Below, one piece after another: positions 21,972 through 44,942 of a stretch of 64,000 bases of DNA (position 1 is the stretch's first letter; the number at the start of each line of letters is the position of its first letter). The DNA is from Trileptium ribeirensis. Lineage: Eukaryota > Nematoda > Enoplea > Enoplida > Thoracostomopsidae. Position numbers and translations under genes: made by a program. The DNA is taken from assembly GCA_030248225.1 (NCBI GenBank), contig JASANE010010005.1, positions 1 through 64,000 of the forward strand, written 5' to 3'. The notes below the pieces were generated by a model. That model had not been told where the DNA came from and searched no databases. It saw only the letters and a program-made list of their open reading frames with translations.

Positions 21972-23590
21972 ATGGACTCCAACGATACTCATAACGGAGA
22001 CTTGGGAGCCGACGACTTCCTTGGCTGGACTGACGGACATATGGAAGACGAATTACGTGCCAGGCCGCGACGGGCCGCTGGCACCGGTGAGCGACCGCTC
22101 ACTCCCCCGCCCCGACCCCCTGGACAATCGCGTCGAGGAGAGGCGTCCGAGTCGCCTGGACTGGACGGAGATACTGCTAACGCTATCTTGCACCACCTGA
22201 CTACCCAACCGGCTGGTCCTCCTATGATCCCACTAAGGGACATGCCTACTTTTGATGGGAAACCAGGAGGCCAAGACTTTGAGGACTGGGTTCGAATGTA
22301 TAATCGTCTCGCCAACGCCAATGGTTGGGACGATCGACGCAAATTAATTTGTGTTCCAGCACTCTTGCGTGGACCGGCAAGGGAGGCCTTTGAGGGCCTT
22401 CCACCGGGGAAACGTCAAAGTTTTCTAGGATTAGTAGCCAATTTACGCTTCTTATTTTCGTCATCTCGCCGTCCTGAGAAGTCATTATCAGGACTGTGTA
22501 CCAGACAACAAGGAGCAAATGAGCCAGTAGCAATGTACGGCTTAGAGTTGCAGAAATTGTGTGATCGCGCCTTTCCCGATATGGAAGATGAGCAGCGGGA
22601 CACCATGCTTCGCATGTTTTTCCAAAGAGGCTTGCGACCTGAGGTGCGTAGGCAGGTTCTCAACCAAATTCACGAGTGCGAGACATTTCGGGATACCGTG
22701 GGTGTTGCTAAGCGATACGAAGACGCTAGCGCTGCATGCCCCGAACCAGACGCGCCTGCCGCTAGTAAGCCTCGGGCTAAAACCGTTAATTCTTTACTTG
22801 AGGAAGGAGGCGAAGGCCTGATCACACAACTTCAAAACATGATGGAGGACCACCGCAAAGCAAACAATAACAATAGCGACACTATAAGTCGGTTGCTGGA
22901 TGTGATTGATAAGAGGGTCGAGAACACGCGCCAGCTTAACGCTCTCGCGCCGCCATTTGTACCTGGCTCACCCGCTGCGCCGCCGTGCTTGCCGATGCCG
23001 CAGATTACCTGCTATCGCTGCGGAGAACCAGGACACGTTATGCGCGAATGCCCGTATAACGTGCGGTACCCGCCTGCTGCCGTGAATGGTGCGCCGCGCA
23101 ATGTTGAGCCAGCCGCAGCATACGCATCTGGAGCCGCGCGTCGAGAGCCAGGGCCGCTCGGACCGAGAAATGGTGTGGGTGCATACCCACGAAACGACAA
23201 CTATAATGCGGGCCGAGGAGGCCCACCGCCGCAGTTTCGGCGAACCGAAAATGGAAACGGGTATCGGAATAACCCCGGGTGGAACAATCCACCCAATGCG
23301 GGAATGCGACCTACTGGCCCGAATCAAGCGGGACCGCAGTATGGCCGACCACCACCGGGATTTGCCAATAATACTCGCGGAAACGACAGCTATAACAACC
23401 GGCCGGCACCGGCCTATGGGTATCAACGCGCCCAGAGCGAACGACCCCCACCTAATAGAGGCATGGGGCTCCAGCAATTGCAACCTGGCCGATTTTACTC
23501 ACGGGACGACAACAACCGGAATAGCGGCGCTGTACCGCGCCGGCGATATCAATTAAATTGTAGCGCATCACAAGGTAATGGAAATAGAGA
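21972..23590 (+). other. Gag region: capsid and CCHC zinc knuckle
   Basis: Residues about 85-250 match the retrotransposon Gag capsid fold, with the PTFDGKPGGQDFEDWV start and a helical, Arg/Glu-rich body ending near AKRYED. One CCHC knuckle (CYRCGEPGHVMREC, residues 347-360) binds nucleic acid. It is followed by about 150 residues rich in Asn, Gly, Pro and Arg, as in nucleocapsids. This part would form the particle and package the RNA. A single knuckle is usual for Ty3-type elements. Confidence 0.9.
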
Positions 23591-26500: not shown

Positions 26501-29500
26501 CTGCATGACCGGAATGTACCTTGGTCCCGTAACTCTTGCTTCGTTGGAATCATTCATAGACCTGGTGGGCCAATGCGTGAATGGCCACACGCTCCAACAG
26601 GTTATTGAGAGAGAATTCGAGGTGGAGTTGGACAGGAACCCGGTATGTCGACAGTGCCAGGAATGCCATACAAGAGATTCGCGGGACATAGGCTTAAGCT
26701 GCTACTTTTACGGTCAACGAGGAAGGTGGACCTACGACGGTACGTTGAGTACAGCTTGCGCGTCCATCCTCCCGGATGGATACGTCGCACCGCACTGGCC
26801 TTTCTACGTTGGAATTCAGTCAGCCAGAATGCAGAAGACTTTCCGTGAGGCGAACCTCGAGTTACATGACCTCTTATGCGAGGCGCCTTACTTGATCGAA
26901 TTTATTTACCAACACCAAGATACACGCGGTGTTCCGATCAACTCCTTTGTCGACCATGCAATGGACAATATGGAATTTGACGACGAAACTCACCGACTTG
27001 CTCGACTAGTACTGCTAAGTGCACGCTTGAGACTTTTGCGACGTCCCGACATTGCTGCACTGCTTGAGACGGAGGGAAACACATCAGTCGGACTAAAGAT
27101 AGGCAGGGACCGCCTAATCTCGGAACTATGCTTGTTTCCGGACGATGCCACCAACTGTTCCGTCCCGAATTTGGACGAACAACTAAACACGGCGCTAGCC
27201 GCTTGCCTCGACTCATCCGAAGACGAGTCGGAGAATAACTCCGATAGCGACTCCGCCCAGCAAGAAAGCATAACTGAGTCGAGTGACACGGAAATGAGCG
27301 ACGAGGAAATTAGAAGCGATATTACGGGACACATCGCAAATAAAGAGACCATGAGGGAACCCAATCGAAACGAGGTACGATCCCCTTCACCGAGTCTTAG
27401 TAATGGCCTCGGCCATCCATCAGGTATGTGGAGGGTCTGTACAATCCTATTATTACTTTGGCTCTCAGCGCTCAGTTCTACACGCGCAACGCTTTCGCCA
27501 TTCAGCGACTCAATCTCGCGCTTAGGTGCTTTTGTCAATAGACAAGTAGGAGTGGTCATCGAGCCACAGGGCTTGGTGGTCACCTCTGACCAGACCACGC
27601 ATCTGCCAGTGGTATTGCAGTTATCACTTCGTGATTGGGAACGCAAGTCCGATCCTTATGTGAGTAAGTTCTGTCCGCCTTATGAAGCAAACGGAAAATG
27701 TCGCGCCGACTGCTGCCGGAAAGTCAACTGTACCGAATATCCACAGCTACATGAGACCCTAAGAGCTTTGGAAAGCGAGTTGGACGACGCCTACCATGGC
27801 GTACTGGACACCAATTATTATTCGCTGCTTGTGCATTCTTTTTGCGTCGCGAACGAGCAATTGTGTGATCTCACACATAAAAGGGAGAAACGCTTTGCCA
27901 GCTTAATCGCCGCCGCTGCCGGCGCTGTCTCAGGTTTCTTGGGCCTGGGAATGGCTTTTTCCAATGGAGTACACATTAACAATGTGCGCCAACAGGTAAC
28001 TGTCCTCGAGAAATTCATGCGCGAGACCAACGATGTCTCCTTTCGAAACACTAAAGCCATAAGGCAACTGACCCGAGCAAACGAGGACATTTACGCATTC
28101 TTACATCATAGCATGCAAGAGGTAGTCTCTATGATCGAACAGGTTAGATGTGCCGATCAGAAAGAGATCGCACATGTACATCACCAGCTGATAGATCACA
28201 TCCTTCGAGCCAATATGCGCTCGTCGGTACAAGCTATAATGGAGTCCATGTTGAACGGCGAATTATCTCCTGCCGTCATCGATGTCGTCATGCTACGACG
28301 GTTATTTTCCATGGATCCACGCATTTCCAAAACTATCCTTATGCGCGAGCCTAGCCTCGCCTATCAGTTTGGTCGCGTCATGCCTGTTAGCGTAGACTTA
28401 ACAGCGTTTCGATTTGGATTCATACTGCAACTACCATTGCCGATGCGCAATGATGTACGTCCGTATTTTCGGATCTATAACACCGGTTGGAACGCACCTG
28501 CCACGCTAACGCAGCTGAGATTGCCGCTCCCTCAATACGCCGCCCGCTTAGGGCACGTTCGCTTCGAATCGCTCAATCTAGGAGCATGCAAGCAGAGACC
28601 AGGAATCGCTTTCTGCGAACCGCACGCGCTAATCACCGATCATAGCACCAATTGTTTGGAATGGATAATCGCAGGCGAACATGTGCCTGAGACCATTAAA
28701 CATACATGCAGCAACCGCTCGCTAATAGGTCCACTTACCAACGACACGTCTGTACACACAACTATACAAGGAGTATTGATTCGGACTAGTGAACCTGAGG
28801 TCATACTGACAAATCGTAGACAACTAGCTCACGTTACAATGGGTAAGTCGATAAAAGTACCGCCAAATGGAGTGTTATGGTTTCCACACGGAAACTACAC
28901 TCAGTTGGTTATAGGATCAATAGTGCTCACTAGCATGTTGAAACCCGAGAAGATTACAATAAAATTCGGACCGAATATCACTATTGACCGGCTATCCGGT
29001 ATCAAACTAAGACCTTTGACATGGGACTCACTTGACAACGCCAAAGCTATAAATTTGCGGGTTGCGCAGATAGCTAAAGATCAAGTACGTAGGGTGGTTA
29101 ATCTCCCCGCTGTGGAGTACACCGGATTCCTGCCCTACTTCCTTATTACCGTCGTTGTGGGACTGATCAGTTTAATCTATTTTATGACCAAATGCAAGCT
29201 CCCACCTAAGTACGGATATTACATTCCCCGATGGTTCCCATGTCGTGGACGACTAATCAGGACCGATAGTAAGCCTAGAAAAGTGATTCGATGGACTAGA
29301 GCGAGACCCCAAATACCGAGTGCCCCACCCGAGGAAGACGACTTTCCTCATACAGACAGGACTTCGCCGACCGAGGTCACGGTTGGGCCTTCGGGAACGC
29401 CGCGCGTGTCCGTCGCGTCCAGCCGTGCCCCACGTCGCTCGAACAGACTATTAACATCACGTAACTCTTCCGAGGAAGAGCTTGTTTTCATCGAGGACGA

Positions 29501-32500
29501 CGAACTATTTGTCGCTCCCACCCGTGACTTACGTCGTGGACCTCGTCAAGGTGTATTCACTAGACAATTAAACACGATGAACGCAGGTAACACGCCACTA
29601 CTCATTAATGCAACCATACTTGGTACCCCTGTCATGACACTTGTAGATACTGGAGCCGACGTCTCAATCATGTCCCAAGCCCTGGCTGCCCGTTTAGGAC
29701 TGGTCCCTCGTGACACGACCACTACCCGTATAGTATCGGCCACACAACAAGAATTGACAATCAGCGGAGTAGTAAAAGCACCGATCACCATAGGATCGTT
29801 AAGTACACCGTGCGACTTTCAGGTAACAACAGACACACCGTACGAATGCATCTTAGGCACCGACTTTATGGCTCTACTACCATATGTCGCCATAAATTTC
29901 AAAGACCGCTGCCTGGATCTATCTAACGGGACTGAGAACTGCTCGGCACCTTTCGCCGACCAAGGGGATTACCGACCCCCAGTCATCAACGTGGTAACCA
30001 GGAAATACACTCAAGTACCACCGAATACAGAATTATTTATCAACGCCGTCCCGGAAATCACCCAACCACCGACAGGTCAAGCCTTGTTTGTGCCTGACCC
30101 CTTTATTAGGGACGTTGCCATCGCCCACTCTCTGGTACTCACTGGCCAACGCATGATACCAATAGCACTAATGAACTTTGGGAACTTTCCCGTCGCCATA
30201 CACGCTGGACAGACAATAGGACATATCGAGATGCTTGACGACAATGAGGTCGAGTTCTTGTATGACAGTAACAAACGTTTGCTACAACTTGACCCTCCGA
30301 GACGCACTAAGCAATGCAACAATATTGGAGTTACACGAGACAATGTTGTCCAAATTATAAGTGAACAGAAGAAGACCATTGACACCGAGCGATCCATACA
30401 AGTCTTGAGTAAAATTGACTTTGGACAAACGACCCTAAACCCTTTCGAACTCAAACAATTGAAAACAACTATCTCTGAAAACGCAGACATATTTAGTGTA
30501 CACCCGTTTGATCTCGGCAGATGCGGTGTGCACCAGCACAGGATCGTTACTGGAGACGCAAGGCCCATTAAACAGGTACCCTATCGTCTAGCACACTCAT
30601 TACGAGAACCCTTGCGTGAGAAATTAAACAACATGGTAGAGGCAGGTCTAATAACGCCGTCAGATTCACCTTGGGGTTCCCCCATAGTCTACGTCACCAA
30701 AAGTGACGGTACCTTACGGTTGTGTGTCGACTTCCGTAAGCTCAACGTAGTTGCAGAACGAGATTTATATCCGTTGCCCCGTATAGACGACATCTTGGGA
30801 TGCCTCCGAAACACCAAATTCATGTCCAGCTTAGATCTTAACAAGGGTTTCTGGCAACTAGAATTGGACCCCGAGACTAAGGAGAAAACCTCCTTCGTCA
30901 CTGTCCACGGACAGTATGAATACAACGTTCTGCCATTTGGACTGAATTCTTCACCAGGCGCCTTTCAAAGGTGCATGTCAATCATATTAAAAGGCCTAGA
31001 ATGGGAACGATGCCTCATCTACATAGACGACATATTGGTCTTTTCACCCACGTTCGAACAACACCTAGCGGACTTAATAACAGTATTTGATAGGTTCCGC
31101 AAGGCCAATCTTAAACTAAAACCTTCAAAATGCCAATTCGGACAGAAACAATTAAAATATCTCGGACACATCATCAGTTCAGAGGGAGTTAAGCCCGACC
31201 CCGAGAAAACCGCTGCAATAGACAATTATAAACGCCCGGAGACTCTCAAACAGTTACAAAGTTTCCTAGGACTTGTAGGATACTATCACAAATTCATACC
31301 ACACTACTCTGAAATTTGTGAACCGCTCAACGCACTTCGACGAAAGGACAGTGAATTCAAATGGACACCGCAATGCGAGGAAGCATTCGGAAAACTACGT
31401 AAGGCATTGGTACAAGAACCATTACTCATATACCCGGACTTTTCTAAACCTTTCATACTCCAAACGGACGCTTCGGGATATGCACTAGGAGCCGTGCTTT
31501 CGCAAAAGACTGACAAAGGGACACTACCTATCGCCTACGCAAGCAAATCATTGGTGGACTATCAACGCCGATACCCCGCCATAGAGACCGAGGCTCTTGC
31601 CATTCGATGGGCTGCCCTACACTTTCGACATTACCTCCTTGGACATGAATTCCATGTTGAGACTGACCACAAGCCACTCAAGGCACTATTCGAGAGACCA
31701 CCGCGAAATTCAAGACTGGCCCAATGGCGAAATGAGCTATTGATGGAATTCGGTGGTTTTAACATCGAATATCGACCAGGTAAGGCCAATGCCAACGCAG
31801 ACGGACTTTCACGCGATCCCCGACATGACGTGGAATTTTCTTACTCATCGGACGAAGCTGAACAGGACGAACAGGACCATCCTCGAATGGTTGCTGTAGC
31901 TGTTAAAGGACAGGATCGCGGTAAAGGCAAAGCTCCAGCTAAACCACCCCGACGATTTCCCACCGAAGAAATTTGGAAGCGACTTACTCGACAACTCTTG
32001 GGACTTCCACCGGACGCTCCTGTTACCCTACCACCCGAGTACGTTAGAGAACGTTTCTATCGTATGTTCGGAGGATCCGATCATGACCCCCTACCGGATC
32101 CGACACGTTTCATCTTCTGTGGAGACATAGACGACCCCTGGCCCGAAGGAGTTGAGATCCCCGGGAGACGGACGACTGCCCCAGGACCGCCAGAATCCAC
32201 TGATAAACCAACCCACGGACCATCTCCTGCACCCGAACCACCCGCCAGACCCCCCCAACCTCAGGAACCCCCGACAGCTCCGACACCGCCTGCTCCTGGT
32301 GCGGCAAGCGAAAGCTCGACTCGCGCCACGGCTGGTACACCTGAACCCGCTAGACCACAGACGCTACCGACAAGTGCTAGACAGAGATACGGAGGTTTAC
32401 CGGAAGTAGAGGAATTTGACACATTAATTAAGGTTGCTTACGCATGTGGGCCACGAATACAATTACAACGCCCCGAACAAGTCTATGACACTGGAGAACA

Positions 32501-35351
32501 CATATACTTACCACACTTTCAACAATACGAAGGGAGGAACCTTCTCAATTACCTACCATACATTCAACGCAGAGATAAACAGTTTGGTCCTATTTGGTGG
32601 TACTTGCACACCCGACAGTCGCCCGCCGATGAAAAGGCAGCGACCGCCCTCAAATTGGAAGCCCACCATTATAGGCTCTGCCCCGACACTGCTATTCTAT
32701 ACTTACACCCCATCATGCCAAACGACCATAGACCAAAACTATGCGTACCCAGATTACTCATACGACAAATACTCAAGCACGAACACGACACATTATTCGG
32801 CGGACATCCAGGTAGAGATCGTCTGCTGAGCAAACTCAAGCAATTCTACTACTGGGAAACCATGGGTAAGGACGTAGATGAATATGTTAAGCGATGTGTA
32901 CTCTGCCAGCGATCACGTAACCTACCCCAAAATGTTCGAGCCGCGCTCGGAGAGAACCCGTTGGCTAGTGCACCCATGCATCGCATGTTTGTTGACATAC
33001 TGGACACTCGGGTGCTGTCCCGAAACGGAAATAGGTACGTAATCGCCTTCATCGATCAGTTCACGAAATTGGTGATTGCCGCTGCGTTACCGGACCAAAC
33101 CGCCAAAAGCGTCGCCAAGGTCTTCGTCGAAGACGTGGTGTGCCGTTACGGCGCACCCGAAGAGTTAGTCTCAGACCGAGGCGGATGTTTCGTCTCAGAA
33201 GTAATGGAAGCCTTGTGCGCTAGACTACATACATTTAAACGCGAAACGCTCAGCTACAACCCGAAGGCAAACGGAGAGATCGAACGCTTCAACCGTACAC
33301 TACTATTCCTCCTAAGAGTAGCATTACCTGAAAAGGACCATACTACGTGGGACGAAGTCCTGCCGTATTGTATCATGTCCTACAATTCAGCAGTACACGC
33401 TTCCACGCACTATCCACCATTCATGCTCATGCACGGATTCCAACCCCGAGTGCCAGGTGGAATCGAAACACAAACTGATTGGGGACGCTACCCCGGAGCA
33501 GAAGCATACCGCGCTAATGTACAACGGTGGTTAGCCACCATCAGGGATCGAGCCTATCGATCCATGCAATCCGCTCGGGAATACAGAAAACGCTACTACA
33601 ACCGTAAGATCAAGGTCCCGGACTACCGTGTTAATGACCATGTATGGGTGTATCGATACTACACTACACCAGGATTATCGCGCAAACTAGAACGCCGATG
33701 GTGTGGACCCTATCAGATCACCAAAATAATGCTTCCCTGCATCTGCGTCAAACTCCCCGGACAACCTAATGCATCCGATCATGTTGTTCACATAAATCGC
33801 ACCAAACCATGCTATCGCCCGCTAAGTAGTTTCCCCGACATGGCCGATTTACTCAAAGCAGTTCCTCCCGCATACATTGAGGCTGCACTACAGGAACCCG
33901 GAGAAACGATCCTTGCTGACAAATATTTCGCTAGGGAATTACAGGCTGCAGACCCAGAAGCAGTAGATCGGTTGCGTCAGGAGATTGATGGTGCATCCGA
34001 CGTCGCTAGTGTAGAGATCGGAGAACCTAACTTAGAATACACGCAAGCCCAGGCAGACATCCACCGCGCCGCAGTAGAACGGCTGACCATTCAAGCCCTA
34101 GACTCCTCCGGAGCCCCGCAACAAAACAGACTTCCCCTCTGTGACCCTGACAGAACCCCAGACACCGAATGGCCCGCTATATCACAGGAACTCGCAACCC
34201 AGGACTCCGCTAAGTTACCTTACGCACTTGATAAACCACCAGGTACTTTCTCGCCTGAGTATGGACAACACACCGCCCCAGTAACCCTACGAGAGCAGGA
34301 ACGAGCCGTTCGGACTGACGAGGCTACAAGGCCTCTAAAGGTAAAACGGTTAGACCCCGGACGCGCATTGCGACCATTCAATGTAAACGACCTCGGTCTT
34401 GTGGAATTACTCGCTTCACAGGACCCGGACGAAGACTCGCCTCACACTCCGGAACAAGCGGCATCCCCAACGTCAGCAGTCGAACATGCTGTCCAAACTT
34501 CGCCCCTTACGCCCGCCCAACGTCGAGCTGCAATCGCCACTCAAACATCCCGCAGTCCTCAGACACAACACTTAATGACCGAAACAGACCAGCCAGTAAC
34601 ACCATACTACACCTATTATGAACATTCAGCGTCTTACGAACAACCATATTCTATACCTCGTCAGGCGTACTCCGCCCCACCTACACCACTTCCACACACT
34701 CCCCTGATGCCACAAGGATTCGAAGCCACAATAGAGGACTACGTTCCAGACGAATGGCTCACACCATTTCACACCCCTCCAAGATCACAACCCGCACAAT
34801 CCGTCCCAGCAACCAGCCAACCTCCACTGGAACCCGCGCCAACACCGAAACCCAAACCTAAACCACGACGAAAACCAACTAAGGTTCCCGCGCCGACTAG
34901 TGAACAAGCATCATCTATAAGCTCGGAGACCACCTCACCGGAAACAGCCGATTTTCCGACACCGCCCCAACGGTGGATAATTCCACCCCTATTATCACCC
35001 TTGCAGGAACGGGGAACCAAAGATCCACAGGTACCATCCTTTGGTCGATGGACCACCCGAAGACAAAATGAACTAGCACAATGGGAATGGGAAATGCAAG
35101 AAATAAGGAGGAAGAGAGAGGAAGCCGCCCGCGCCCGAGGAGAAATACAAGATGCAAATGAGCTGATGGAATACCTAAGAGGATCTCCCATACAATACCT
35201 CCCATCGGAAGACCAAGTAGCTGCCGACGGGATTGTAGAAGAATTTATTGAAAGTTTAGCTCGACAAAGAAACGAGAGTCAAGTAAACAACGTCGACCTT
35301 CCGAGTCTTCGGAAGGCGGTCGACCGAAACGATTACGACCACGGACTGTAG
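21972..35351 (+). CDS. Giant Gag-Env-Pro-Pol polyprotein (4459 aa)
   Basis: A single uninterrupted ORF encodes the structural, envelope-like and replication proteins of the element. The start is the ATG in AAATGGACTCC, the first after the leader, and the capsid follows about 90 residues later. Domains by residue are: capsid about 85-250; CCHC knuckle 347-360; Asn/Gly/Pro-rich nucleocapsid to about 530; acidic linker about 540-1373; unassigned globular domain about 1374-1740; Env-like 1819-2410; aspartic protease with DTGA at 2559-2562; RT with Asp 2955 and YIDD 3017-3020; RNase H with Asp 3166, Glu 3207 and Asp 3232; integrase with HHCC near 3603-3645 and Asp 3675, Asp 3735 and Glu 3771; GPY motif 3912; proline-rich tail to 4459. 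Every key catalytic residue I looked for is present. That, and the 13.4-kb length without a stop, argue for recent function. The Ty3 family usually places env after pol. Confidence 0.95.
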   Translation: MDSNDTHNGDLGADDFLGWTDGHMEDELRARPRRAAGTGERPLTPPPRPPGQSRRGEASESPGLDGDTANAILHHLTTQPAGPPMIPLRDMPTFDGKPGGQDFEDWVRMYNRLANANGWDDRRKLICVPALLRGPAREAFEGLPPGKRQSFLGLVANLRFLFSSSRRPEKSLSGLCTRQQGANEPVAMYGLELQKLCDRAFPDMEDEQRDTMLRMFFQRGLRPEVRRQVLNQIHECETFRDTVGVAKRYEDASAACPEPDAPAASKPRAKTVNSLLEEGGEGLITQLQNMMEDHRKANNNNSDTISRLLDVIDKRVENTRQLNALAPPFVPGSPAAPPCLPMPQITCYRCGEPGHVMRECPYNVRYPPAAVNGAPRNVEPAAAYASGAARREPGPLGPRNGVGAYPRNDNYNAGRGGPPPQFRRTENGNGYRNNPGWNNPPNAGMRPTGPNQAGPQYGRPPPGFANNTRGNDSYNNRPAPAYGYQRAQSERPPPNRGMGLQQLQPGRFYSRDDNNRNSGAVPRRRYQLNCSASQGNGNREPSPATTHRLEVLSRELGMIQGKLGHSEPTGRVNAIATTDEPMYDDDGYLINRHDDMDEFEMMEGLVERHLNVITSTSWADAARLPRSRDLVQGIDSPGLMELGPRDLDGDQYGSEFVNTVYSKENTKYQKEGYVGEGLSMLCVDAPSAGVDPPVYMSASELNGEQRGERRIDQSNYPAMRGLGTNARTLTAMEDSDGSMEICEEMENGCVQNYRLSDVKGSVDFITGTPQGITSRGNSGTPSSLEMTAEIVDEDDVVVFDEPLLLFSSSVAGHPCVESVVVDDSGREADDVDMAQEESDLFGSPCEAPMELLEIGGRSGTMEAAAYDVRALSESPSPSSVLNYRSYDVVCGPDRRAGRPLCDGENCVSYECIDLPKLGRAYSLSELLEDDDGSDVDVIERCFEPAKYATDGLEVTFPTSLARGSTVIGSFLDADRGRPCHPYPSRGSDGFAADCADEAGMIVGAESIARGLPRYGDVDGRVANKDCPLHCEASVAPTVVEARNDVICNELSFFNKSCSEVSVKDSAECVELVEAVELKESDELLSERSGSVASDANYVSEAKICNLNRDTSQEYVSNGNAPENELKYGVTAAPDGPDDRYDECSDSEIDEERLLSDEEFWANWVDPNADWYRREPSPDAREWHSEGVWEVRRENNNELPRAPSDDGIDLSLRASQLSIRSEEGDGAVGGSDLSEGSGSGSIATGSMQEMSSDPLGENVRGDPIEGTPCMRPGNLGDSTDTLADVSSDILGPVEEVPSMPSGNSGNPNETGVITEESVEGRPCMSPGNSEDSVSITSEDSDVCMGHENLLNFTREANDERVHRLDEQLLDMSGLCLPNNMPIELGRVRAITDEERNRILGTDTLFTMSTDHTETAAYQFPRVELTEDARNESAEGLIPINFRASEINADFGQPLALQPQALFYRRVIIVMEQLNNLSRLFELRFEVSTRPALQRDAAMLSSILGMASPIGHCMTGMYLGPVTLASLESFIDLVGQCVNGHTLQQVIEREFEVELDRNPVCRQCQECHTRDSRDIGLSCYFYGQRGRWTYDGTLSTACASILPDGYVAPHWPFYVGIQSARMQKTFREANLELHDLLCEAPYLIEFIYQHQDTRGVPINSFVDHAMDNMEFDDETHRLARLVLLSARLRLLRRPDIAALLETEGNTSVGLKIGRDRLISELCLFPDDATNCSVPNLDEQLNTALAACLDSSEDESENNSDSDSAQQESITESSDTEMSDEEIRSDITGHIANKETMREPNRNEVRSPSPSLSNGLGHPSGMWRVCTILLLLWLSALSSTRATLSPFSDSISRLGAFVNRQVGVVIEPQGLVVTSDQTTHLPVVLQLSLRDWERKSDPYVSKFCPPYEANGKCRADCCRKVNCTEYPQLHETLRALESELDDAYHGVLDTNYYSLLVHSFCVANEQLCDLTHKREKRFASLIAAAAGAVSGFLGLGMAFSNGVHINNVRQQVTVLEKFMRETNDVSFRNTKAIRQLTRANEDIYAFLHHSMQEVVSMIEQVRCADQKEIAHVHHQLIDHILRANMRSSVQAIMESMLNGELSPAVIDVVMLRRLFSMDPRISKTILMREPSLAYQFGRVMPVSVDLTAFRFGFILQLPLPMRNDVRPYFRIYNTGWNAPATLTQLRLPLPQYAARLGHVRFESLNLGACKQRPGIAFCEPHALITDHSTNCLEWIIAGEHVPETIKHTCSNRSLIGPLTNDTSVHTTIQGVLIRTSEPEVILTNRRQLAHVTMGKSIKVPPNGVLWFPHGNYTQLVIGSIVLTSMLKPEKITIKFGPNITIDRLSGIKLRPLTWDSLDNAKAINLRVAQIAKDQVRRVVNLPAVEYTGFLPYFLITVVVGLISLIYFMTKCKLPPKYGYYIPRWFPCRGRLIRTDSKPRKVIRWTRARPQIPSAPPEEDDFPHTDRTSPTEVTVGPSGTPRVSVASSRAPRRSNRLLTSRNSSEEELVFIEDDELFVAPTRDLRRGPRQGVFTRQLNTMNAGNTPLLINATILGTPVMTLVDTGADVSIMSQALAARLGLVPRDTTTTRIVSATQQELTISGVVKAPITIGSLSTPCDFQVTTDTPYECILGTDFMALLPYVAINFKDRCLDLSNGTENCSAPFADQGDYRPPVINVVTRKYTQVPPNTELFINAVPEITQPPTGQALFVPDPFIRDVAIAHSLVLTGQRMIPIALMNFGNFPVAIHAGQTIGHIEMLDDNEVEFLYDSNKRLLQLDPPRRTKQCNNIGVTRDNVVQIISEQKKTIDTERSIQVLSKIDFGQTTLNPFELKQLKTTISENADIFSVHPFDLGRCGVHQHRIVTGDARPIKQVPYRLAHSLREPLREKLNNMVEAGLITPSDSPWGSPIVYVTKSDGTLRLCVDFRKLNVVAERDLYPLPRIDDILGCLRNTKFMSSLDLNKGFWQLELDPETKEKTSFVTVHGQYEYNVLPFGLNSSPGAFQRCMSIILKGLEWERCLIYIDDILVFSPTFEQHLADLITVFDRFRKANLKLKPSKCQFGQKQLKYLGHIISSEGVKPDPEKTAAIDNYKRPETLKQLQSFLGLVGYYHKFIPHYSEICEPLNALRRKDSEFKWTPQCEEAFGKLRKALVQEPLLIYPDFSKPFILQTDASGYALGAVLSQKTDKGTLPIAYASKSLVDYQRRYPAIETEALAIRWAALHFRHYLLGHEFHVETDHKPLKALFERPPRNSRLAQWRNELLMEFGGFNIEYRPGKANANADGLSRDPRHDVEFSYSSDEAEQDEQDHPRMVAVAVKGQDRGKGKAPAKPPRRFPTEEIWKRLTRQLLGLPPDAPVTLPPEYVRERFYRMFGGSDHDPLPDPTRFIFCGDIDDPWPEGVEIPGRRTTAPGPPESTDKPTHGPSPAPEPPARPPQPQEPPTAPTPPAPGAASESSTRATAGTPEPARPQTLPTSARQRYGGLPEVEEFDTLIKVAYACGPRIQLQRPEQVYDTGEHIYLPHFQQYEGRNLLNYLPYIQRRDKQFGPIWWYLHTRQSPADEKAATALKLEAHHYRLCPDTAILYLHPIMPNDHRPKLCVPRLLIRQILKHEHDTLFGGHPGRDRLLSKLKQFYYWETMGKDVDEYVKRCVLCQRSRNLPQNVRAALGENPLASAPMHRMFVDILDTRVLSRNGNRYVIAFIDQFTKLVIAAALPDQTAKSVAKVFVEDVVCRYGAPEELVSDRGGCFVSEVMEALCARLHTFKRETLSYNPKANGEIERFNRTLLFLLRVALPEKDHTTWDEVLPYCIMSYNSAVHASTHYPPFMLMHGFQPRVPGGIETQTDWGRYPGAEAYRANVQRWLATIRDRAYRSMQSAREYRKRYYNRKIKVPDYRVNDHVWVYRYYTTPGLSRKLERRWCGPYQITKIMLPCICVKLPGQPNASDHVVHINRTKPCYRPLSSFPDMADLLKAVPPAYIEAALQEPGETILADKYFARELQAADPEAVDRLRQEIDGASDVASVEIGEPNLEYTQAQADIHRAAVERLTIQALDSSGAPQQNRLPLCDPDRTPDTEWPAISQELATQDSAKLPYALDKPPGTFSPEYGQHTAPVTLREQERAVRTDEATRPLKVKRLDPGRALRPFNVNDLGLVELLASQDPDEDSPHTPEQAASPTSAVEHAVQTSPLTPAQRRAAIATQTSRSPQTQHLMTETDQPVTPYYTYYEHSASYEQPYSIPRQAYSAPPTPLPHTPLMPQGFEATIEDYVPDEWLTPFHTPPRSQPAQSVPATSQPPLEPAPTPKPKPKPRRKPTKVPAPTSEQASSISSETTSPETADFPTPPQRWIIPPLLSPLQERGTKDPQVPSFGRWTTRRQNELAQWEWEMQEIRRKREEAARARGEIQDANELMEYLRGSPIQYLPSEDQVAADGIVEEFIESLARQRNESQVNNVDLPSLRKAVDRNDYDHGL
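23591..26090 (+). other. Acidic, low-complexity linker of the polyprotein
   Basis: About 830 residues rich in Asp, Glu and Ser, with many short acidic clusters and no recognisable fold. Three related short segments containing a GNxG/S motif (around residues 1268, 1300 and 1325) form an imperfect repeat. Its size is unusual for a Gag extension. A spacer or host-interaction role is only a guess. Confidence 0.6.
26091..27330 (+). other. Unassigned Cys-containing globular domain between Gag and Env
   Basis: Residues about 1374-1740 have normal hydrophobic spacing and predicted helices, unlike the acidic linker. They include a Cys cluster beginning CRQCQECH at residue 1559, with further Cys about 15 and 30 residues later. 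This could bind a metal. I recognise no family. It ends in a second Ser/Asp/Glu-rich stretch just before the Env-like signal sequence. Confidence 0.5.
27426..29230 (+). other. Env-like fusion glycoprotein region
   Basis: Residues 1819-2410 have the layout of a class I-like viral envelope protein. A hydrophobic signal-like segment lies at about 1822-1838, followed by a Cys-rich head with N-glycosylation sites. A basic furin-type site, KREKR, is at 1970-1974. It is followed at once by a 22-residue Ala/Gly/Leu-rich stretch that looks like a fusion peptide. A heptad-like helical segment follows, then a large ectodomain with several NxS/T sites. One transmembrane segment lies at about 2385-2408, with a basic cytoplasmic tail. 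I cannot assign it to a named Env family (baculovirus-F-like or other). A good donor-like CAG|GTATGT overlaps its internal Met. How a membrane protein would be released from the middle of Gag-Pol is not explained by the sequence. Confidence 0.8.
29231..29950 (+). other. Retropepsin-like aspartic protease region
   Basis: After the Env-like tail and a charged linker, residues about 2535-2645 carry the DTGADVSIM active-site motif (Asp 2559), the flap-region glycines and the ILGTDF motif typical of Ty3-type proteases. It would cut the polyprotein as a dimer. Confidence 0.9.
30480..31850 (+). other. Reverse transcriptase and RNase H region
   Basis: RT motifs appear in order: SPWGSPIVYV, RLCVDFRKLN, SLDLNKGFWQ with the first catalytic Asp 2955, LPFGLNSSPGAFQR, and YIDD at 3017-3020. 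The connection LGHIISSEG and LGLVGYYHKFI leads to RNase H with TDAS (Asp 3166), TEALA (Glu 3207) and TDHKPL (Asp 3232). Spacing and motifs are those of Ty3/Gypsy elements and look complete. Confidence 0.95.
31851..32690 (+). other. Proline-rich spacer between RNase H and integrase
   Basis: About 280 residues, including a Pro-rich block (about 3395-3455), separate RNase H from integrase. This spacer is longer than in typical Ty3 elements. No domain is recognised. Confidence 0.6.
32691..33850 (+). other. Integrase region
   Basis: The HHCC zinc-binding part has His near 3603-3612 and Cys 3642/3645. The catalytic core has Asp 3675, Asp 3735 and Glu 3771, with exactly 35 residues between the last two (DD35E). 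The C-terminal part carries a WCGPY motif at about 3910-3914, as in the GPY/F module of Ty3-type integrases. I see no chromodomain. Confidence 0.92.
33851..35351 (+). other. Polyprotein C-terminal tail
   Basis: Residues about 3961-4459 are rich in Pro, Glu, Thr and Gln with a charged coiled-coil-like end (WEWEMQEIRRKREEA). No enzyme domain is recognised. Its composition continues into the -1-frame ORF that overlaps its end, suggesting the two were or are read together. Confidence 0.6.
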
Positions 35352-36094
35352 ACAAGGACAATGAGACAATATCAACCATTGGCGAATCAACTAAAGGCTC
35401 CTCTACCGGGAGGAAGGGAAGAGCGCCGCCGCGTAGCGCTCCCTCCACCCTCAAGGGAGTTCTAACTCGACCATCACGCGCCAAACCACGCCGACAAACC
35501 CCAGCTAGAGCCCAATCACAAGTTAGTTGGGAAGACGAAGAGGACGAGGTACCTCTTAGTCAACTTTTACCGGGACCCCGGCGAAGGCCCCACTTTGAAC
35601 TCGATCCTCCAACAGAGGAGAGCGAGGGATCTCCTGAGATGGGACCCTCTGCACCCGAAGTTAAAGAGAGGGAAGAACCCCCTCAACCTACCCGCCGACA
35701 ACCACATAGACAAGCTAGGGACCGTTGTCGTTGGTATGAAGAATACATACCACACGGAGAAGAAGCCCGAGTCGTAATACCACGTTTGGACACCCGACGA
35801 TTGGAACCTAAAATTACGGCACCAGCTCGACGGACTATACCCCTCGCTCCACCGACTCGACATCGTGACCCTGTTATGCCGATGGATTATCCATCTGGTA
35901 GTGCTCGTGCACGGCACGACATGTTCGAACCTTTTAGGGACATCTTTGACGAACAGGACATCGAGGACATGTTATCCGCACATCCGGACTTGGAACCCGA
36001 CGAGGACAGTGGACAAAGACAATTACGACCCGAAGATATCGGACTAGAAGTGGTCCGACCTCCGAGACAACCGCCTCGCGAGCGACGGTTGTAA
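35252..36094 (+). CDS. Proline/arginine/acid-rich ORF overlapping the polyprotein in the -1 frame
   Basis: The frame is open from just after a TGA at 35249-35251 to a TAA at 36092-36094, about 280 codons. It overlaps the last 100 bases of the giant ORF in the -1 frame. The first ATG is far in, at 35639, so expression by frameshifting or as a relic of a longer polyprotein is more likely than independent initiation. The protein is low-complexity and disordered-looking, with acidic clusters (WEDEEDEV, LEPDEDSG), and resembles the tail of the polyprotein in style. I found no standard X XXY YYZ slippery heptamer in the overlap. It may equally be a one-base mutation in this copy. Confidence 0.55.
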   Translation, partial: KFSSTKKRESSKQRRPSESSEGGRPKRLRPRTVDKDNETISTIGESTKGSSTGRKGRAPPRSAPSTLKGVLTRPSRAKPRRQTPARAQSQVSWEDEEDEVPLSQLLPGPRRRPHFELDPPTEESEGSPEMGPSAPEVKEREEPPQPTRRQPHRQARDRCRWYEEYIPHGEEARVVIPRLDTRRLEPKITAPARRTIPLAPPTRHRDPVMPMDYPSGSARARHDMFEPFRDIFDEQDIEDMLSAHPDLEPDEDSGQRQLRPEDIGLEVVRPPRQPPRERRL

Positions 36095-36167: not shown

Positions 36168-37346
36168 ATGGTGATGAATACTATTGCAGGAATCACCAAA
36201 TCACTCAACGACATGGAACAAATTCCACAACCTCGTGTGCCGTATTACACCATTAACTATGGTGCCCCAATCGAAACGTTCCTGTCCAAAGGCACACACT
36301 GGCCGGAACTCTCCAACATGGCTCCGTTAGGCCAAACCGTCACCCAATATCCCATCGAATACGCCTCGACGGAGCAAGGCTACCAGCTCCTCGTCACCTA
36401 TTTATTCGACGAGGAGCAAGCAAAACAAGACATTTCGGACCTGAAGATGGGAGCTCGAGACGTCAAGACCATCTCCCGACGGAACAAACAAAAGTTCCTC
36501 GACCCCGAAACAACCGAGCGCCTCCGCCCAGTACTCCCTCACCTCATGCGGACGGTGCTACTAGAAAAATTCAAGATTCCTAGATTCAGGGACGCCCTAC
36601 TCGCCACCGGATACGCACAATTGCTCGAGGCAAACAGATCCGATTCGTTTTGGGGAATCGGCCTAGGGCCGGAGGACATCAAATTCGGCAAGCGACCGCG
36701 GCCATGCCACAACGTTATGGGCCGCCTATTGGAGGAGGTTCGATCCTTCCTCCGTCACAACGTCGCCTCCTGGCCGACGGTTTTGATTTTGGGCGACTCT
36801 CTAGCTGCGCCCTTGGTTAATATGGCCGCCTCCAAGGGGTGGTTCGCCCTGGCTTGGCCGGGAGCCACCATGCAATTCCTAGTCCGGTTGGCGACCTGTA
36901 TCGCGACGCCGCAAACCAAGACAATCATGATTCTTGGTGGATACAAGGCGGCCTTACGATCGAAGCCGCACGAAGGCCGTTTGCTGGACACGCCCAGCAA
37001 AGTAATGCGTCGAGTGCGCCGATACATATGCTCATTCGACTACTTACTCAGTAATGGAGCTCGAGCGGTTATCGCCCCGCCTCCACCACATTGGGACATT
37101 GGACAGTACGATACGGTCGAGTGGCACGACGAGTTCACCAAACTACTTCAGGACATCAAATGGCAATACCCCGACAGGATGCGGAAATCGTCGATGCCAG
37201 ACTACCCACCCGAACTGAACGAGTCAGGCGCGTGGGAAACCGTTACCAACGGCAGCGAAATTGGGGAGTCCCGCAATGCCGAACCCTATGTCGGATATTT
37301 CCAGAAATGGGCTCAACAAAACCTAGTACCTAACCAATGGGATTAA
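36168..37346 (+). CDS. NADAR-domain protein fused to an SGNH/GDSL-like domain
   Basis: A 392-codon ORF closes the element's coding part; the frame is open from 36102 and the first ATG is at 36168. Residues about 33-198 match the NADAR (YbiA-like) fold: LSNMAP (48-53), the acidic STEQGYQ motif (67-73), AR near 96-97, FRDALLATG (140-148) and the diagnostic FWGIGL (161-166) with a following helix. NADAR enzymes remove ADP-ribose from modified guanine bases or act on related nucleotides. Residues 203-322 resemble an SGNH hydrolase: ILGDSL with Ser 211, a GG pair (256-257) where the oxyanion block would be, and WHDEF (His 319) near the end. The GxND Asn is not visible, so esterase activity is doubtful. 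The frame equals that of the polyprotein but is cut off by stops, so it needs its own start or splicing. Removal of a host modification from element DNA is a hypothesis only. Confidence 0.75.
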   Translation: MVMNTIAGITKSLNDMEQIPQPRVPYYTINYGAPIETFLSKGTHWPELSNMAPLGQTVTQYPIEYASTEQGYQLLVTYLFDEEQAKQDISDLKMGARDVKTISRRNKQKFLDPETTERLRPVLPHLMRTVLLEKFKIPRFRDALLATGYAQLLEANRSDSFWGIGLGPEDIKFGKRPRPCHNVMGRLLEEVRSFLRHNVASWPTVLILGDSLAAPLVNMAASKGWFALAWPGATMQFLVRLATCIATPQTKTIMILGGYKAALRSKPHEGRLLDTPSKVMRRVRRYICSFDYLLSNGARAVIAPPPPHWDIGQYDTVEWHDEFTKLLQDIKWQYPDRMRKSSMPDYPPELNESGAWETVTNGSEIGESRNAEPYVGYFQKWAQQNLVPNQWD

Positions 37347-38125: not shown

Positions 38126-40207
38126 TGTAACAGGCCCGTTCCGGCCCGTTACGTACATTTTGCAGGATTTCGACATCAGGACGGCCTAAATGCGCCTTAG
38201 ATAGAACCAGACACATCTACCGGAACTAAGTTTGCATGTAGTGACGGGTGCCAAGGCCGCTGATAATTGCTTTGTTAATACTGTTATTCTGGGTACATCC
38301 ATTTTGTCATGAATGTGTTTTGCCATTATTTCTATGCCATTGTATGCTTTGTTATAATTGTGCATCATGTCGGACAAGCTCACGCAGGTACTCCGGAAGT
38401 CTCACTAGGGCAAAGGTACACTTCGACGAGAATAGGAAAGAGCCAACTGGCAACGAGATAGGGGATCCGAACGGAATTCGACTACTTCTCCCTATTTCCC
38501 CATTGAAATTTCAAAATTTAGACCGTCCGGGAATAGGAGGCCTCTGACGATTTAAGGGGTCGGAAAGTGATCAAAATCAGGACTATCAATTTTACCTGGT
38601 TCGAACAAACTATAGCCTAATGGTCACAGAAGTAAGCTGAAATAAGTGGGTTACGGTAGTTTCCGATTGTTCGGAAATAACGGACCTCGGGCCTGTTTAT
38701 CGGCCCGTAACCGTCCAACGGTTCAGATTTACCGAAAATGTCCCGAGTACTTTTCGGTAGAGAATTTTTCGGGCTTTTGAACGAGCCCAAGACATCACAA
38801 ATTGCTGAAGGATTTCCTGAGATATTTTGGGGACAAACAGGTCAACATTCAATTAACAGCCTAATACTTACGCTAGGTTTGGCTGGAGACCATGGTTCCG
38901 AGTGGACATAACTTAGGCTTATATGGAAATATAGTTATGCATATATATGTGTACTGCGTGACCTTCGTGACTTGGTGTGTCTATTTTTCCGCCCCACCGT
39001 ACCAAAGCCTTCCTTTTCATAGCACCCTTTGAAGCCCAAATTTGCCTGATCACCATGCTAACAACTGGGTTTTCTGGTTACCATCGGACTAGTGAGTGAA
39101 CGTACGAGTGTTTCCAAGTAATCCACCCATCTAGGCATCTGGCGAGGCCACTCGGGTCTCGATCCGACCAGTCATTCCGCCGCTAGATCACTCATTTCCC
39201 TGTTTTATACCGTACCACGGAAATTCAACATAAAATTCCGCTTTTTCTGTACCAACTCCGTATTTGACCCCCGACCCTAGATGTGCTCATGTGACCCCTC
39301 ATTTTATTCGTCTGCGCCCGGCGAGCACAACGATATCCGGCGGGTCTTTGTTCGACTTCGCGTTAGCCCTTTATGACCGAAAAGGTGCCCCCCCAATTTG
39401 GCGTACCGACTGTAAGTGGGTACAGACCGACCGAAAATTTAACCCCAACTCAAAAGTAGGCATAATGCCCCTCATTGCATTCGCCGCGTCGAGACATCTT
39501 CAAAGATGCCCGGCGGGTCTCCATCCGTCGCCCCGTTAACCCGGGACGGCCGAAAATGCGCCCCCACTTTTTGCCGACACTCTCTTTAACGGTCTTTAAC
39601 AGTCGTAATTTTAGTGCCCCTCTACCCGCTGCCGTTAAGGTAGGGAAAACACCCCTCGTTTGAATCGCCTTTCCAAGACGAGTTCAACGATGCCCGGCGG
39701 GCGTCGCTCCGCCCAACCGTTAGAGCGGGAGAGCCCGCTGAAACCCTGCATGCTAATACATGTCGGAACCCAAAACTGGGTCCCGACCCGCCACTGCGTC
39801 TACCCCCTTCATGTTTGGTATCGTTCGGCCCCGTTCTTCGTCCTGGGACCGAATTTCGCGTCAGCCCTTCGAAATTCCCTCGGGAACCCTCCTGTCCCGA
39901 CTCCCTTCCCCTGCCCTTTCTTTTCCGTTTTCTTTTTCTTTTTCTTTCCACTCTCTCTCTAACCGACTTTTTGGTCGGTTGTCGTCGCTGCTGTCTCCAT
40001 GAGTGTGTTATATATGTGTGTGTACGTGTGTGTGTGTTGTTGTTGTGGTTGCTGTGCTGATGTTGTTGTTGTTGTTGTGGTTCTGCGTGTTTCTAGAGTG
40101 AACTTGAGCGACCTTTCTGTCGCCCAGGTCGTCTGTGTGTCTCATGTGTAATGTGTGCTCATGAGTAGTGTATGTGTATGTGTATGTATATATGGGTAAA
40201 ATATATG

Positions 40208-40247
<40 letters not shown>

Positions 40248-43200
40248 ATACGTAGGACGACACAAAAAACAGGACAGACGAGGACGGACATGTAAAATTT
40301 TCTTAAATTTCTACGTTTTACGGACGGACTGGACGCATAGGACTAAGACGGACGGGGGGCATGTTTAGGGCCCTCCTGTGCCCACTGGGAGTTCCTGAAT
40401 GGAACCCCCGATAGGTAAAAAGTTACCGAGGAATGGGCTGCACCCACGACCACGAAATCAGCTCATTCCCTCTTTCGGTTCCCCCCTTCGGGACGTCCAA
40501 AGACGTCCTGTCGGGATATCTGAAAAGCCGTTAGCTTGGAATGCTAGGAATGTTTGGCTTTATCTTATAAGCCAACATATAAACGTGCAATGTTTGCACG
40601 TTTATCCATGGATAGGGCGGTAAGATTTAACCCCAGATGGACTTTAGTTAAGCTTAATTAGGTGATGGATGAGGCAGCTAACTCGCTAAATAGCAGAAAT
40701 TTGGCTTTAAATCGGCGAGTTAGCTGGGGGAAAATGATGGATGGGGACTAGAAGACGACTCTGACCCGAAACGAGGACAGATTGTAAGCTTAACCCGAGC
40801 ATTTATATAGAGAAATAAATTCAAAATTTAAAAGTTGACGGGTGACCCAACCATTTTTATAGAACAGTTGGGGTTTTAACAACCGATTTAGGATTAGGTA
40901 AGAGCTTTAAGAGATCTGAGTAATGATCTTCAGATCTATTTTTGACATAACTTTCGAAAGTTACGTTAGGATTTAAGCTGAAAAGCACAGATGGTCGACC
41001 TCCGAGTATTCGGAGGGTTCAAATTTGATGTCGGCGATTTCGATTGAAGCCGACTCTCTCTAACGGGGTCCCAGGGTTTACGATAGCTGTCAAAATCAAA
41101 ATCTTGGGAATTTTTCGATTGGGCGCCCGGGTTTGAAATTGAAAAGTGGGCGTCAAAAGATCTCCTCCGATTGGATAGCGACAAAATCGCTATCTCTCAA
41201 CACAGCTGAAAATTTTGAAGCGACGACTGCCGCGTCGTCTCGACAGATCAGTTTGACTTCGGCAGCGCGGAGTTCGGTCGACTCTACTGACCGGCTCCGA
41301 CGCTTGAGTTTTAGTATGGTTTGCATCTGTTTTGGCTTTCTCGTGTTTTCTGCTTTATTCGTTTGGAATGGGATTCGACAACGAGAGGACCCGCGTAGAC
41401 ATCTTTCGTCTCGAGGAAGGGGACCAGCTATTGCTGTCCCGGATCAAACCTTGTAAGTCAGGAAGCGTTGCAAGAGCATGGGGGTTTATTTTCCCCAGAC
41501 ATGAATGTAACAGACCGAAATTTTAGTTCGTGATAACATGATTTGTTCTCTATAGAGTGACCGGTCGTCCGTCGATGGACGTCCCGCCTTCCACGCCGAT
41601 TAGTTACAAATTTTTACATGTTCTTTGACAAACTGTCTCGAGTCGAGTTCCGTTTTGGGCATTTCGAGCGATTACACGGGGGGTGTTGCATTGTGGACAC
41701 CAATCGAAGTCATTCTGATTTCCCGTGGTCATAGGTAAGGCAAATCAAAATGGACGCTTCTCGTCCACGCGTTTTTACATGACTTATTACTCTTGAGTTA
41801 GGGCTGTCGAATTTTCCTGAGCTGACCACGGTAAAACTTTACCACGAAATCATAAGGATTCGCTTATTCGCTTGTTTCTGATTATGCTTATGGTTTACAA
41901 AATTACAGTTTAGTGGACCGTTCGATGCTCATGCCGCTGCTTGAGCTCGGACTGACGTTGCAGTTAGGGACGGAGGATTAGCCTCTGTCGGGCTTTAGAA
42001 AGCCCTAAAATTTATTTTGTCAGTTGAGTTAAGAAAATTTGGGGAAATACAAAAGACCAAACAAATTCTAAGTGATTTTAGCTTGAGCATAAGGTATTGG
42101 CACTCCGCAAGGAGCGATTTTATTACAATCCTCGCACGATTTTGACCAGTGTTTGATTTGTTTGTCAACAGGACGGTTGATGCCAGCTTTACATAAGGAT
42201 CAGCTACCGATGTCACGAGCCCTTGGCGGCCCCTCAGGACTAAACTTACTAGGCGCTTGTAAAAGATATCGCCTCACCATGTTTGCTTCGAAATTGTCTC
42301 TGTTCAGCTATTCAGTCTACCGATGTTCACCGTAGCATGCAGCCGTGGTTAAGTTCGGCGATAGTGAATGGTAAAACTCCCTGTACTAAAATGAACCGAC
42401 CGCATTGTTAGAGATCACAATCCACCACCGTGCCCGCTTCCAAAAGCTCGGCACTATGCCCCGCCCTTAAACAGAAAAATGGGCTAGAATATCCTCTTTT
42501 AAATAAAGAATAAAATCGCGACCTCTCGCGAACCATTTTGACCCCAAACCGAGCAAGTGCAAAACCCCGTTTTCTTTTCAGAGCGACTCGATCGCTGAGT
42601 TTAAGTGTTTTTCTATTTTATCCCTGGTTGCCCGTTAGGCTATGTACTATGTATGCCCCGATTTAGCTTTTTCAACATTTTTGTCTCTCTCTCCTTTTTC
42701 GTTTTCCCTGATTGAGTTTCGATCCTGCACGGAGGATGTAAGTCCGCTGCAGATCTTTCAGTTCTAACCACTCGACTATCGAGTTCTGACAAAATTTAAT
42801 AAAATTTCAATGATAACTCAACCTCAACTGTACACTTTCGACAGTGCAGTTGAGACACTGTACAATTTCGATGTGTACAGTGTAATAAGAACTTAGGATG
42901 AGCGATAGAGAGAGAAAAGAAAAGAAAACAACGACAAAGGAAACAAAAGAAGAGAGCAAGGAAACGAACAAAGAAACAACAGCCAAAAAAGGGACGCGGA
43001 CGCGTCCGAGGGCGAAATGCCCCATATCCCCACTTACGCTAGGACCAAATGCACCCCATGGTGCAAACCTGGTTCCGACCGTAAAATAGGCGCAGATACC
43101 CGCTTGAAACGACTCGATCAGTGATATCGGTCGCCTAAGAAACCACCCAAGACGGCATTTGTTCGTGCCCCCTTGTCTAGGCCGAAGAAAAGCGACTAGG

Positions 43201-44942
43201 GACGGCCAATTAACGTGACTGGAACGGCGTCCCCGACCCACATTGCGTAGTTCAACAATTACTCCACTACCAAAATCGACCGCCTCGTCACACGCCAACC
43301 ATACTCGGGAATTTAGGACTAGGGACAACCAAGCGCACTTTTGGACTGCCGGAGACACTGAGTTAAAAGTGATCATCTACTATTGCAAAATCTATCCTAA
43401 GGGCGGAACGTTGCCAAGAGACTCAATTAGGATGTTAGGTAGTACGTACAGGACGAGGAATACTCCCTGGATGGAGTCGCAAAACCGCTAATTATCATAT
43501 TGTTACTTCGTTTATAAGATATTGTCCATTGATTGTTGTTCGTTCGGATTAGCACGGACCAATTTTCAATGACCATGTATTAAAATATACCATAATTGAT
43601 ATGCTTAACATAGCCATGACTTAGCTGATACGCTCTAGGTAACCACGACCTGAGTGTTATGCTTAATGTAACTATGATTTGATCTGTAAGATGAATCGAA
43701 GCTCTGCCTTGCAAGACAGTTCGTGCCCCCTCGTCTATTGAACCGGCTCAGTCGCGTTCTCCAAAGTCGGCATGTTCTTACAATAAGTTTAGCTTTCCTG
43801 CCCTCGCCGACTAGCCCGTTACCCAGCCCGCACGTCGCGCTGTTTTAATTCTTCCCCCTCCTCCCTTTGCAAGTTGCGTTGAATATTTACAGTGCCGCGC
43901 GGTAGCCGGAGCGAACTTCGAAGCATGCCAGAACACATGACTCGAACCATTACTGAATCAGTTAATGCCGATGGTGCACGCTTTGGGCATAGATTTTGGT
44001 CCGGAATTTCCGGGATCGCATTCGCTCGTGCTGCCCCTCCCTCTCTTGGGGACATAGACGCGGGAACGAACGACTCAATAGGCAGAGTGCTAACTCTCCA
44101 ATCTATCATGTATAGTGCATTTTCTTCGATTGCTAATGCCTGACCAGTATTGTACAGTAATTCAAATAAAATCTTGGAAAAGTACCTGCTGTGTCTGGTG
44201 TTGTTTATGTTCAAGCGTCATAAAGGCGTCCTAATGGACGGGCCAACCCCGCGTGCCACGGCTTGACGAAGGGAATATTCCAAGCCCTGACACGTGCGGT
44301 TCGCCTCAGATATTTGTACTTTTAACGACGGAATTATGGCGAGGATGGCCCATCGAATTACCTACCGAGCTCATTCGTGAAATTAGTACACGCAGATAAA
44401 GACAAAATTTACTAGGAAAACATAATCTCTAGATATTAACACAATCAGATTATTAAGAGGTGAACTAAGTAGTCCGACGTTAAACACTCAGGGACTGTCG
44501 GAACCCTGTGGGGGCCACATGGCTACAACGGACAGAGTGTTCGGCTAAGGATAGTGCAGCAGAACTCAAAATTTACCTAGCAAAACTAAACTTATCACGC
44601 CTTTTACTTTGGTTTACTCTAGAATAAACAACTTCCTTTAGCTTAGGACAGGGAATATCGGTTTGACATTATGACCTGTGAGCAGGTTTCGGTGTCAACC
44701 TCCCTGGGGGACCTCAGCGATCATACCAGGATATTAGACACGTGCGCAACCAATCGGGCGGGGTCCGAACACACCCCGTGAAGCGCGCCTGCGGCCTGCT
44801 AAGCTCCGTAACTTCTTGGGTCTGACCAAGAAAAGTGGTTAAAATTCAAAACTTAGGGTCCGCCCTCGAGGTTATGATAGCCGGGGTCGTATGGGCATGG
44901 TGTTAGGAAGTTGCGCCATGCAGCTGCGTCACAGTTATTACA
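38126..44942 (+). repeat. Right LTR (6817 bp)
   Basis: It is a direct copy of 13811-20589 with the same TGTAA start and TTACA end. Its extra length comes partly from an expanded TA tract (40214-40244). Differences are scattered single bases, except about 44305-44660. There it is only about 75-80% like the left copy by eye, before near-identity resumes. Homology ends at 44942, where an opposite-strand relative begins at once. Confidence 0.92.

Follow-up and report, generated by a model that had tools for sequence, protein, structure and literature searches.

A stretch of 64,000 nucleotides from the nematode Trileptium ribeirensis (contig JASANE010010005.1 of assembly GCA_030248225.1, positions 1 to 64,000), referred to below as the window, holds a giant Ty3/Gypsy retrotransposon with a second open reading frame (ORF), ORF2, between its polyprotein and its 3' long terminal repeat (LTR). 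ORF2 (36213..37346, forward strand) comprises 377 codons from the methionine M16, and its product is predicted, from profiles and a structural model, to be a two-domain protein with an N-terminal YbiA-type NADAR domain and a C-terminal SGNH-like alpha/beta domain. On sequence evidence, ORF2 is a resident gene of the retroelement, under strong purifying selection through many transpositions. A lysine essential in the E. coli C7 NADAR is replaced in every copy compared, and this bears directly on what the protein may do.

The two domains of ORF2 and its residence in the element

The NADAR domain (residues 45-196 of the listed frame; 36300..36755, forward strand) is recognised by Pfam, by its predicted fold and by its ratio of nonsynonymous to synonymous substitution (dN/dS). 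A profile search with PF08719 gave 61.6 bits against a curated cut-off of 35.1, the predicted model shows the YbiA/NADAR fold, and active-site residues match. The initial annotation, which had read a NADAR domain from short motifs and named a profile search and a fold comparison with active-site overlay as checks, was thus right about the domain, since profile and fold both match and refutation by a missing match failed. The model places E154 in the final strand of the NADAR fold (136-139 in M16 numbering), as in YbiA, and this glutamate, which marks the YbiA type, is found in 80/80 copies. Among curated NCBIfam models TIGR02464 fits best, at 51.8, below its equivalog cut-off of 73.7; the anti-phage NADAR model NF053876 scores 32.2, far below its curated cut-off of 240, and PADLOC PDC-M42C reaches 21 bits (E 7.3e-5, in a library without cut-off). 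The first 15 codons of the listed frame (36168..36212, forward strand) are probably untranslated, because their dN/dS is 0.93 (153 pairs) and the frame upstream varies among copies.

The C-terminal domain (residues 197-392; 36756..37343, forward strand) was assigned from its predicted model, a flavodoxin-like alpha/beta fold such as that of the SGNH/GDSL superfamily; profile searches with it returned nothing significant in PDB sequences (best E 0.34) or in Pfam (best E 0.11). SGNH/GDSL hydrolases carry a serine in block I (GDS), a glycine in block II, an asparagine in block III, and an aspartate and a histidine in block V. S211, the GDS serine, is kept in 79/80 copies, G232 in 80/80 and H320 in 79/80; tyrosine stands in place of the block III asparagine in 80/80, and V, I or A in place of the block V aspartate in 80/80. 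By these motif definitions, the SGNH/GDSL catalytic blocks are incomplete in the copies compared.

The genome searched comprises 687 Mb in 20,229 contigs. The best 105 of 2,886 first-look candidates for ORF2 were scored, and all were near full length, 86-92% identical (the window copy aside) and in 95 cases stop-free. From these, a selection set of 80 copies was assembled (the 20 best and 60 of the other 85), nine of which carry one stop. By the Nei-Gojobori method over 3,160 pairs, dN/dS is 0.062 for NADAR residues 45-196 (dS 0.411, dN 0.025; codon bootstrap 0.042-0.089), 0.113 for residues 197-392 and 0.102 for residues 16-392. The NADAR ratio stays between 0.040 and 0.129 across all dS bins and peaks in the closest pairs, the pattern expected from decay after insertion; for the second domain, the bin of closest pairs (9 pairs) stands at 0.416 and the other bins at 0.095-0.165. 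The survey of other copies proposed in the initial annotation was thereby made, and the ORF was neither absent nor decayed.

Moreover, at 20 loci examined with their flanks, the constraint on ORF2 is at least that on the element's own polyprotein tail, with dN/dS 0.096 from M16 (190 pairs) versus 0.129 (105 pairs). A 151-aa ORF just upstream (35639..36094, forward strand; dN/dS 0.140 over 171 pairs) corresponds to the C-terminal tail of the polyprotein in other copies, where the frame is continuous. As an out-of-frame control, the stretch directly 3' of the polyprotein stop was read in the old polyprotein frame, other copies using a different frame there, and gave 1.57 (153 pairs).

Physical linkage points the same way. 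The same 3' LTR start was found downstream of ORF2 in all 19 other flanked loci, and at least 43 of the 105 copies have a reverse transcriptase (RT) match on the same strand some 4.9-5.5 kb upstream of them, one further pair on a shared contig being unrelated. This pairing drew on a list of 150 out of 4,861 RT candidates, with contigs matched by eye and minus-strand distances corrected for hit length; 37 plus-strand ORF2 copies were too close to the contig start. The downstream LTR, the upstream RT and the selection together are the reason for assigning ORF2 to the element, in agreement with its earlier description as encoded by an LTR retroelement.

NADAR active sites in the retroelement and in DNA elements

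The window NADAR is 22-31% identical to 99 reference NADARs, with which it shares N50, E69, Q70, K100, R104, T147, E154, D159, W162, G163, N182 and G185. At positions 50, 69, 159, 162, 163, 182 and 185 the residue is invariant in 99/99 references, occurs also in the window and is kept in 76-80 of the 80 copies (E69 in 78/80, D159 in 80/80, W162 in 76/80). All parts of the NADAR signature, namely the glutamate of S-x-E-Q/H, the asparagine of SN, the D..WG motif and the late asparagine and glycine, are present. Besides the lysine treated below, the window departs from the references at some other conserved positions, among them S103 and C180, where glycine stands in 99/99.

Furthermore, the same genome holds a second set of NADAR genes. 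A genome search with PF08719 gave 2,317 candidates, and the 150 scored all exceeded the cut-off at 123-141 bits, far higher than the window copy. Thirty loci were fetched and the frames were scanned in seven. An upstream frame resembles the A32-like packaging ATPase of poxviruses; the match reaches or exceeds the cut-off in L089, L091 and L092 and is weak in L103. On the downstream side a TATA-binding protein is present in L092, L101 and L103, but frames there gave no such match in L090 and L091. Two wider stretches both match a chromodomain integrase and the A32-like ATPase, and one of them also gives a weak DNA polymerase B match (21.2 bits, below cut-off). Most of the loci examined are read, from these neighbours, as probable Polinton/Maverick-type DNA elements. 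One locus (L117) differs from these, its NADAR lying 3' of a frame of 404 codons in which AAA_12 and related domains of helicase type were matched.

The lysine equivalent to position 76 is kept by 12/12 of the DNA-element NADARs compared. Five of the twelve (L089-L091, L112 and L113) lack W162 and E154, with F in place of W and the lysine retained, so these proteins may also vary in chemistry. That the retroelement NADAR descends from its DNA-element counterparts in this genome was considered and is unsupported: in a tree of 8 retroelement NADARs, 12 DNA-element NADARs and 33 of the 99 references, the eight cluster together outside the twelve, their common branch having a length of 4.0, with the long branches and unsettled bootstrap leaving the placement unsure. 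In the literature searched, no paper was found combining NADAR and Polinton.

Proposed function and rival explanations

We give about even chances to the reading in which ORF2, resident in a giant Burro-like Gypsy element, encodes a protein that would handle an ADP-ribose conjugate and so let the element escape a putative host response by ADP-ribosylation. The protein would be translated from a message of its own or through re-initiation, would bind an ADP-ribose-type ligand, and would cleave or sequester a conjugate carried by element RNA, complementary DNA or particle proteins, or else a small ADP-ribose derivative; its removal or sequestration would then shield the element from the host response. 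Counter-defence is favoured because of the parallel presence of NADARs in DNA elements and because NADARs of animal RNA viruses have been proposed to oppose host ADP-ribosylation (PMC9503650). A broader version, held only tentatively, is that giant Gypsy and Polinton-like parasites, two unrelated kinds, acquired NADARs that group apart and are kept under selection. ADP-ribosylation would then rank among the main defences of this host against parasites within its genome, and the retroelement NADAR-SGNH proteins, lacking the phosphate-binding lysine, would form a new class of counter-defence proteins that handle ADP-ribose and have a substrate of their own.

Several observations weigh against the counter-defence reading. 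Position 76 (E+7) is V in 78/80 copies and I in 2/80, where the references have K in 96/99 and Q in 3/99. It corresponds to K50 of the Phytophthora protein 8bau (alignment numbering) and to K95 of the E. coli C7 NADAR, which is reported to be essential for efficient hydrolysis of guanine-ADP-ribose, although arginine can substitute for it in vitro (PMC11543638). The predicted protein lacks the lysine of active guanine-ADP-ribose-hydrolysing NADARs of the DarT1-associated type, and with V or I in 80/80 copies at this phosphate-coordinating position canonical hydrolysis cannot be assumed; the replacement suggests an altered substrate or a weaker phosphate grip than in DarT1-associated NADARs, and turns these copies into a natural test of the requirements of NADAR chemistry. 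In addition, a search for a DarT homologue in the host genome gave 0 candidates. Finally, intact copies are over-represented, the 105 being the best-scoring of 2,886; choosing such copies lowers dN, yet in our judgement it alone cannot make dN one sixteenth of dS. Of the initial interpretation, a conserved NADAR borne by an LTR element stands, its novelty as cargo does not, and removal of a host ADP-ribose mark is not to be taken for granted with the lysine gone.

Loss of catalysis is the main chemical rival. The NADAR may have become a binding module that reads ADP-ribose or another nucleotide or acts as its decoy, or it may contribute to particle structure, beside an equally non-catalytic SGNH-like domain, as the substituted lysine and the altered SGNH blocks III and V suggest; ORF2 is conserved nonetheless, so it does something. 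The other active-site positions tested are, however, nearly unchanged, and a pure binder would need neither the catalytic glutamate nor the D/W pair. We consider this account unlikely, though the strongest of the rivals. The main functional rival, which we rate somewhat lower, is that ORF2 serves the processing of element RNA (splicing, trans-splicing, export or translation) rather than defence evasion. The nematode protein SNA-3 has three NADAR domains and is required for SL1 trans-splicing, which NADAR mutations impair (PMC9303266), and the authors of the Ectocarpus study suggested processing of the RNA intermediate for NADAR-bearing elements (PMC12477816); in the present analysis no link to splicing was observed, and the NADARs carried by unrelated DNA elements of the same genome are better explained by a shared host challenge.

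An action on soluble metabolites, such as riboflavin intermediates or free ADP-ribose derivatives, that alters the nicotinamide adenine dinucleotide (NAD) metabolism of the cell is improbable. YbiA-type NADARs do hydrolyse riboflavin intermediates (PMC9303266, PMC9503650), TIGR02464 describes a riboflavin-intermediate N-glycosidase, and the strand position of E154 is YbiA-like; but the match falls short of the equivalog cut-off, and the benefit to a retroelement is not obvious. As for a chance resemblance, or a host gene merely adjoining the element, we attach almost no weight to either: both are refuted by the profile, the fold, the copy number (at least 105), the downstream LTR in 19/19 loci and the selection.

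Under the counter-defence reading, a conserved NADAR borne by an element suggests a host-parasite contest over ADP-ribose marks inside the genome, and the Polinton-like NADARs alongside make this genome a testable case for ADP-ribosylation as an animal defence against genomic parasites.

Element architecture and comparable systems

The element measures 31.1 kb in total, with an interior of 17.5 kb between a 5' LTR (13811..20589, forward strand, 6.78 kb) and a 3' LTR (38126..44942, forward strand, 6.82 kb). The two LTRs are 96.0% identical over an alignment of 6,844 columns, and the termini of the former, TGTAACAGG...TTATTACA, were determined by reading the sequence; no target-site duplication was visible by eye flanking the LTRs of the window copy (13790-13810 and 44943-44960). 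The polyprotein ORF (21972..35351, forward strand) encodes 4459 aa and runs from a CCHC zinc knuckle through an acidic region, an env-like stretch seen by eye and an aspartic protease to RT, RNase H and integrase. The RT domain lies at 30696..31175 (forward strand; PF00078, E 8.7e-32) and the zinc-binding and core domains of the integrase at 32745..33230 (forward strand; PF17921, E 2.6e-19, and PF00665, E 4.1e-11). The LTRs and this order of protease, RT, RNase H and integrase are those of a Ty3/Gypsy LTR retrotransposon. The frame is disrupted near its 3' end in the window copy (about 35.3 kb); elsewhere a single frame runs without interruption through the full 1.4 kb upstream of ORF2, at 13 of the other 19 flanked loci. 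Among the 150 RT copies scored out of 4,861 candidates, 145 are 99-100% identical to the window RT, many having a 100% identical protein, and 148 are stop-free; several copies have their RT within frames of more than 4,700 codons. With identical RT proteins and such long open frames, the family looks young.

In layout, size and accessory cargo the element resembles planarian Burro elements, which reach about 30 kb and have a polyprotein of some 4.5-5 thousand residues with an N-terminal gag and accessory domains or ORFs (PMC6431247). In Burro the frame that runs from gag to pol includes an env-like region, called a first case (PMC6431247), and a possible counterpart seen by eye here (27000-29600, between gag and protease) shows a furin-like basic site followed by hydrophobic and membrane stretches; a Pfam scan gave no env match. 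The region from protease to RT (29870-30700) also resembles by eye the dUTPase-like part reported for Burro. Reported Burro cargo includes ankyrin, BIR, BCL2-like, MATH_TRAF and Ubi2/SUMO-like domains, among others (PMC6431247); NADAR is absent from the text of that review, which is distinct from the original description (Grohme et al. 2018). The LTRs of 6.8 kb and the interior of 17.5 kb are further features that set the present element apart from Burro.

An LTR element with this cargo had been thought undescribed in the initial annotation, which proves mistaken: a Gypsy lineage of the brown alga Ectocarpus (e.g. Gypsy-12_Ec32), likewise of Ty3/Gypsy LTR type, carries a conserved YbiA-family NADAR (PMC12477816). 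There, by description, the NADAR stands at the N-terminus of Pol, whereas here an ORF of its own, 3' of the polyprotein, encodes it together with an SGNH-like domain in one protein. The Tx1 LINE (long interspersed nuclear element) of the oyster Crassostrea gigas is also an animal retrotransposon with a NADAR, but is non-LTR and has it in ORF1 (PMC12477816). NADAR capture by retroelements, first reported in these two, thus extends to a giant animal LTR element. Within the literature searched, a NADAR-SGNH ORF standing by itself in a giant Gypsy element of animal type, its strong constraint, its missing lysine and the Polinton-type NADARs alongside in the same genome are new. DarT1-associated NADAR antitoxins and E. 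coli YbiA have the fold and most active-site residues in common with ORF2 (PMC11543638, PMC11125620), which differs by the replaced E+7 lysine, the additional SGNH-like domain and a host with no detected DarT. A large orchid Gypsy likewise carries an ORF for a mark-removing enzyme, an AlkB m6A demethylase active in vitro, but this is a plant 2-ODD dioxygenase unrelated by homology to NADAR (PMC9289625).

In the protein database, the full ORF gave 0 matches at E <= 1e-3 among 4,166 candidates, and the NADAR part alone a single weak match (E 4.6) among 40. A seven-sequence profile gave 6,441 matches among 7,999 scored, the organism names among the 120 listed being phage or bacterium, so that no close relative was found outside the source genome; scans of IMG/VR with the ORF and with the RT-RNase H piece gave no matches.

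The 64-kb window also gave no matches when scanned for tRNA genes and against Rfam at gathering scores. Just 3' of the element lies a 23-bp tandem repeat of about 22 copies (46624-47124). Inspection by eye further showed a second Gypsy-type RT fragment (47867-48710, reverse strand), an IS1595/Merlin-like transposase (52146-52748, forward strand), a LINE-like RT (61742-62713, reverse strand) and, in the other flank, sushi/CCP-like exons (1099-1383, 4308-4691, 10146-10550 and 12918-13184, reverse strand), which point to an animal host. Elsewhere in the genome, a fragmentary COX1-like stretch with stops lies inside a large contig (L088) and is probably a mitochondrial insertion.
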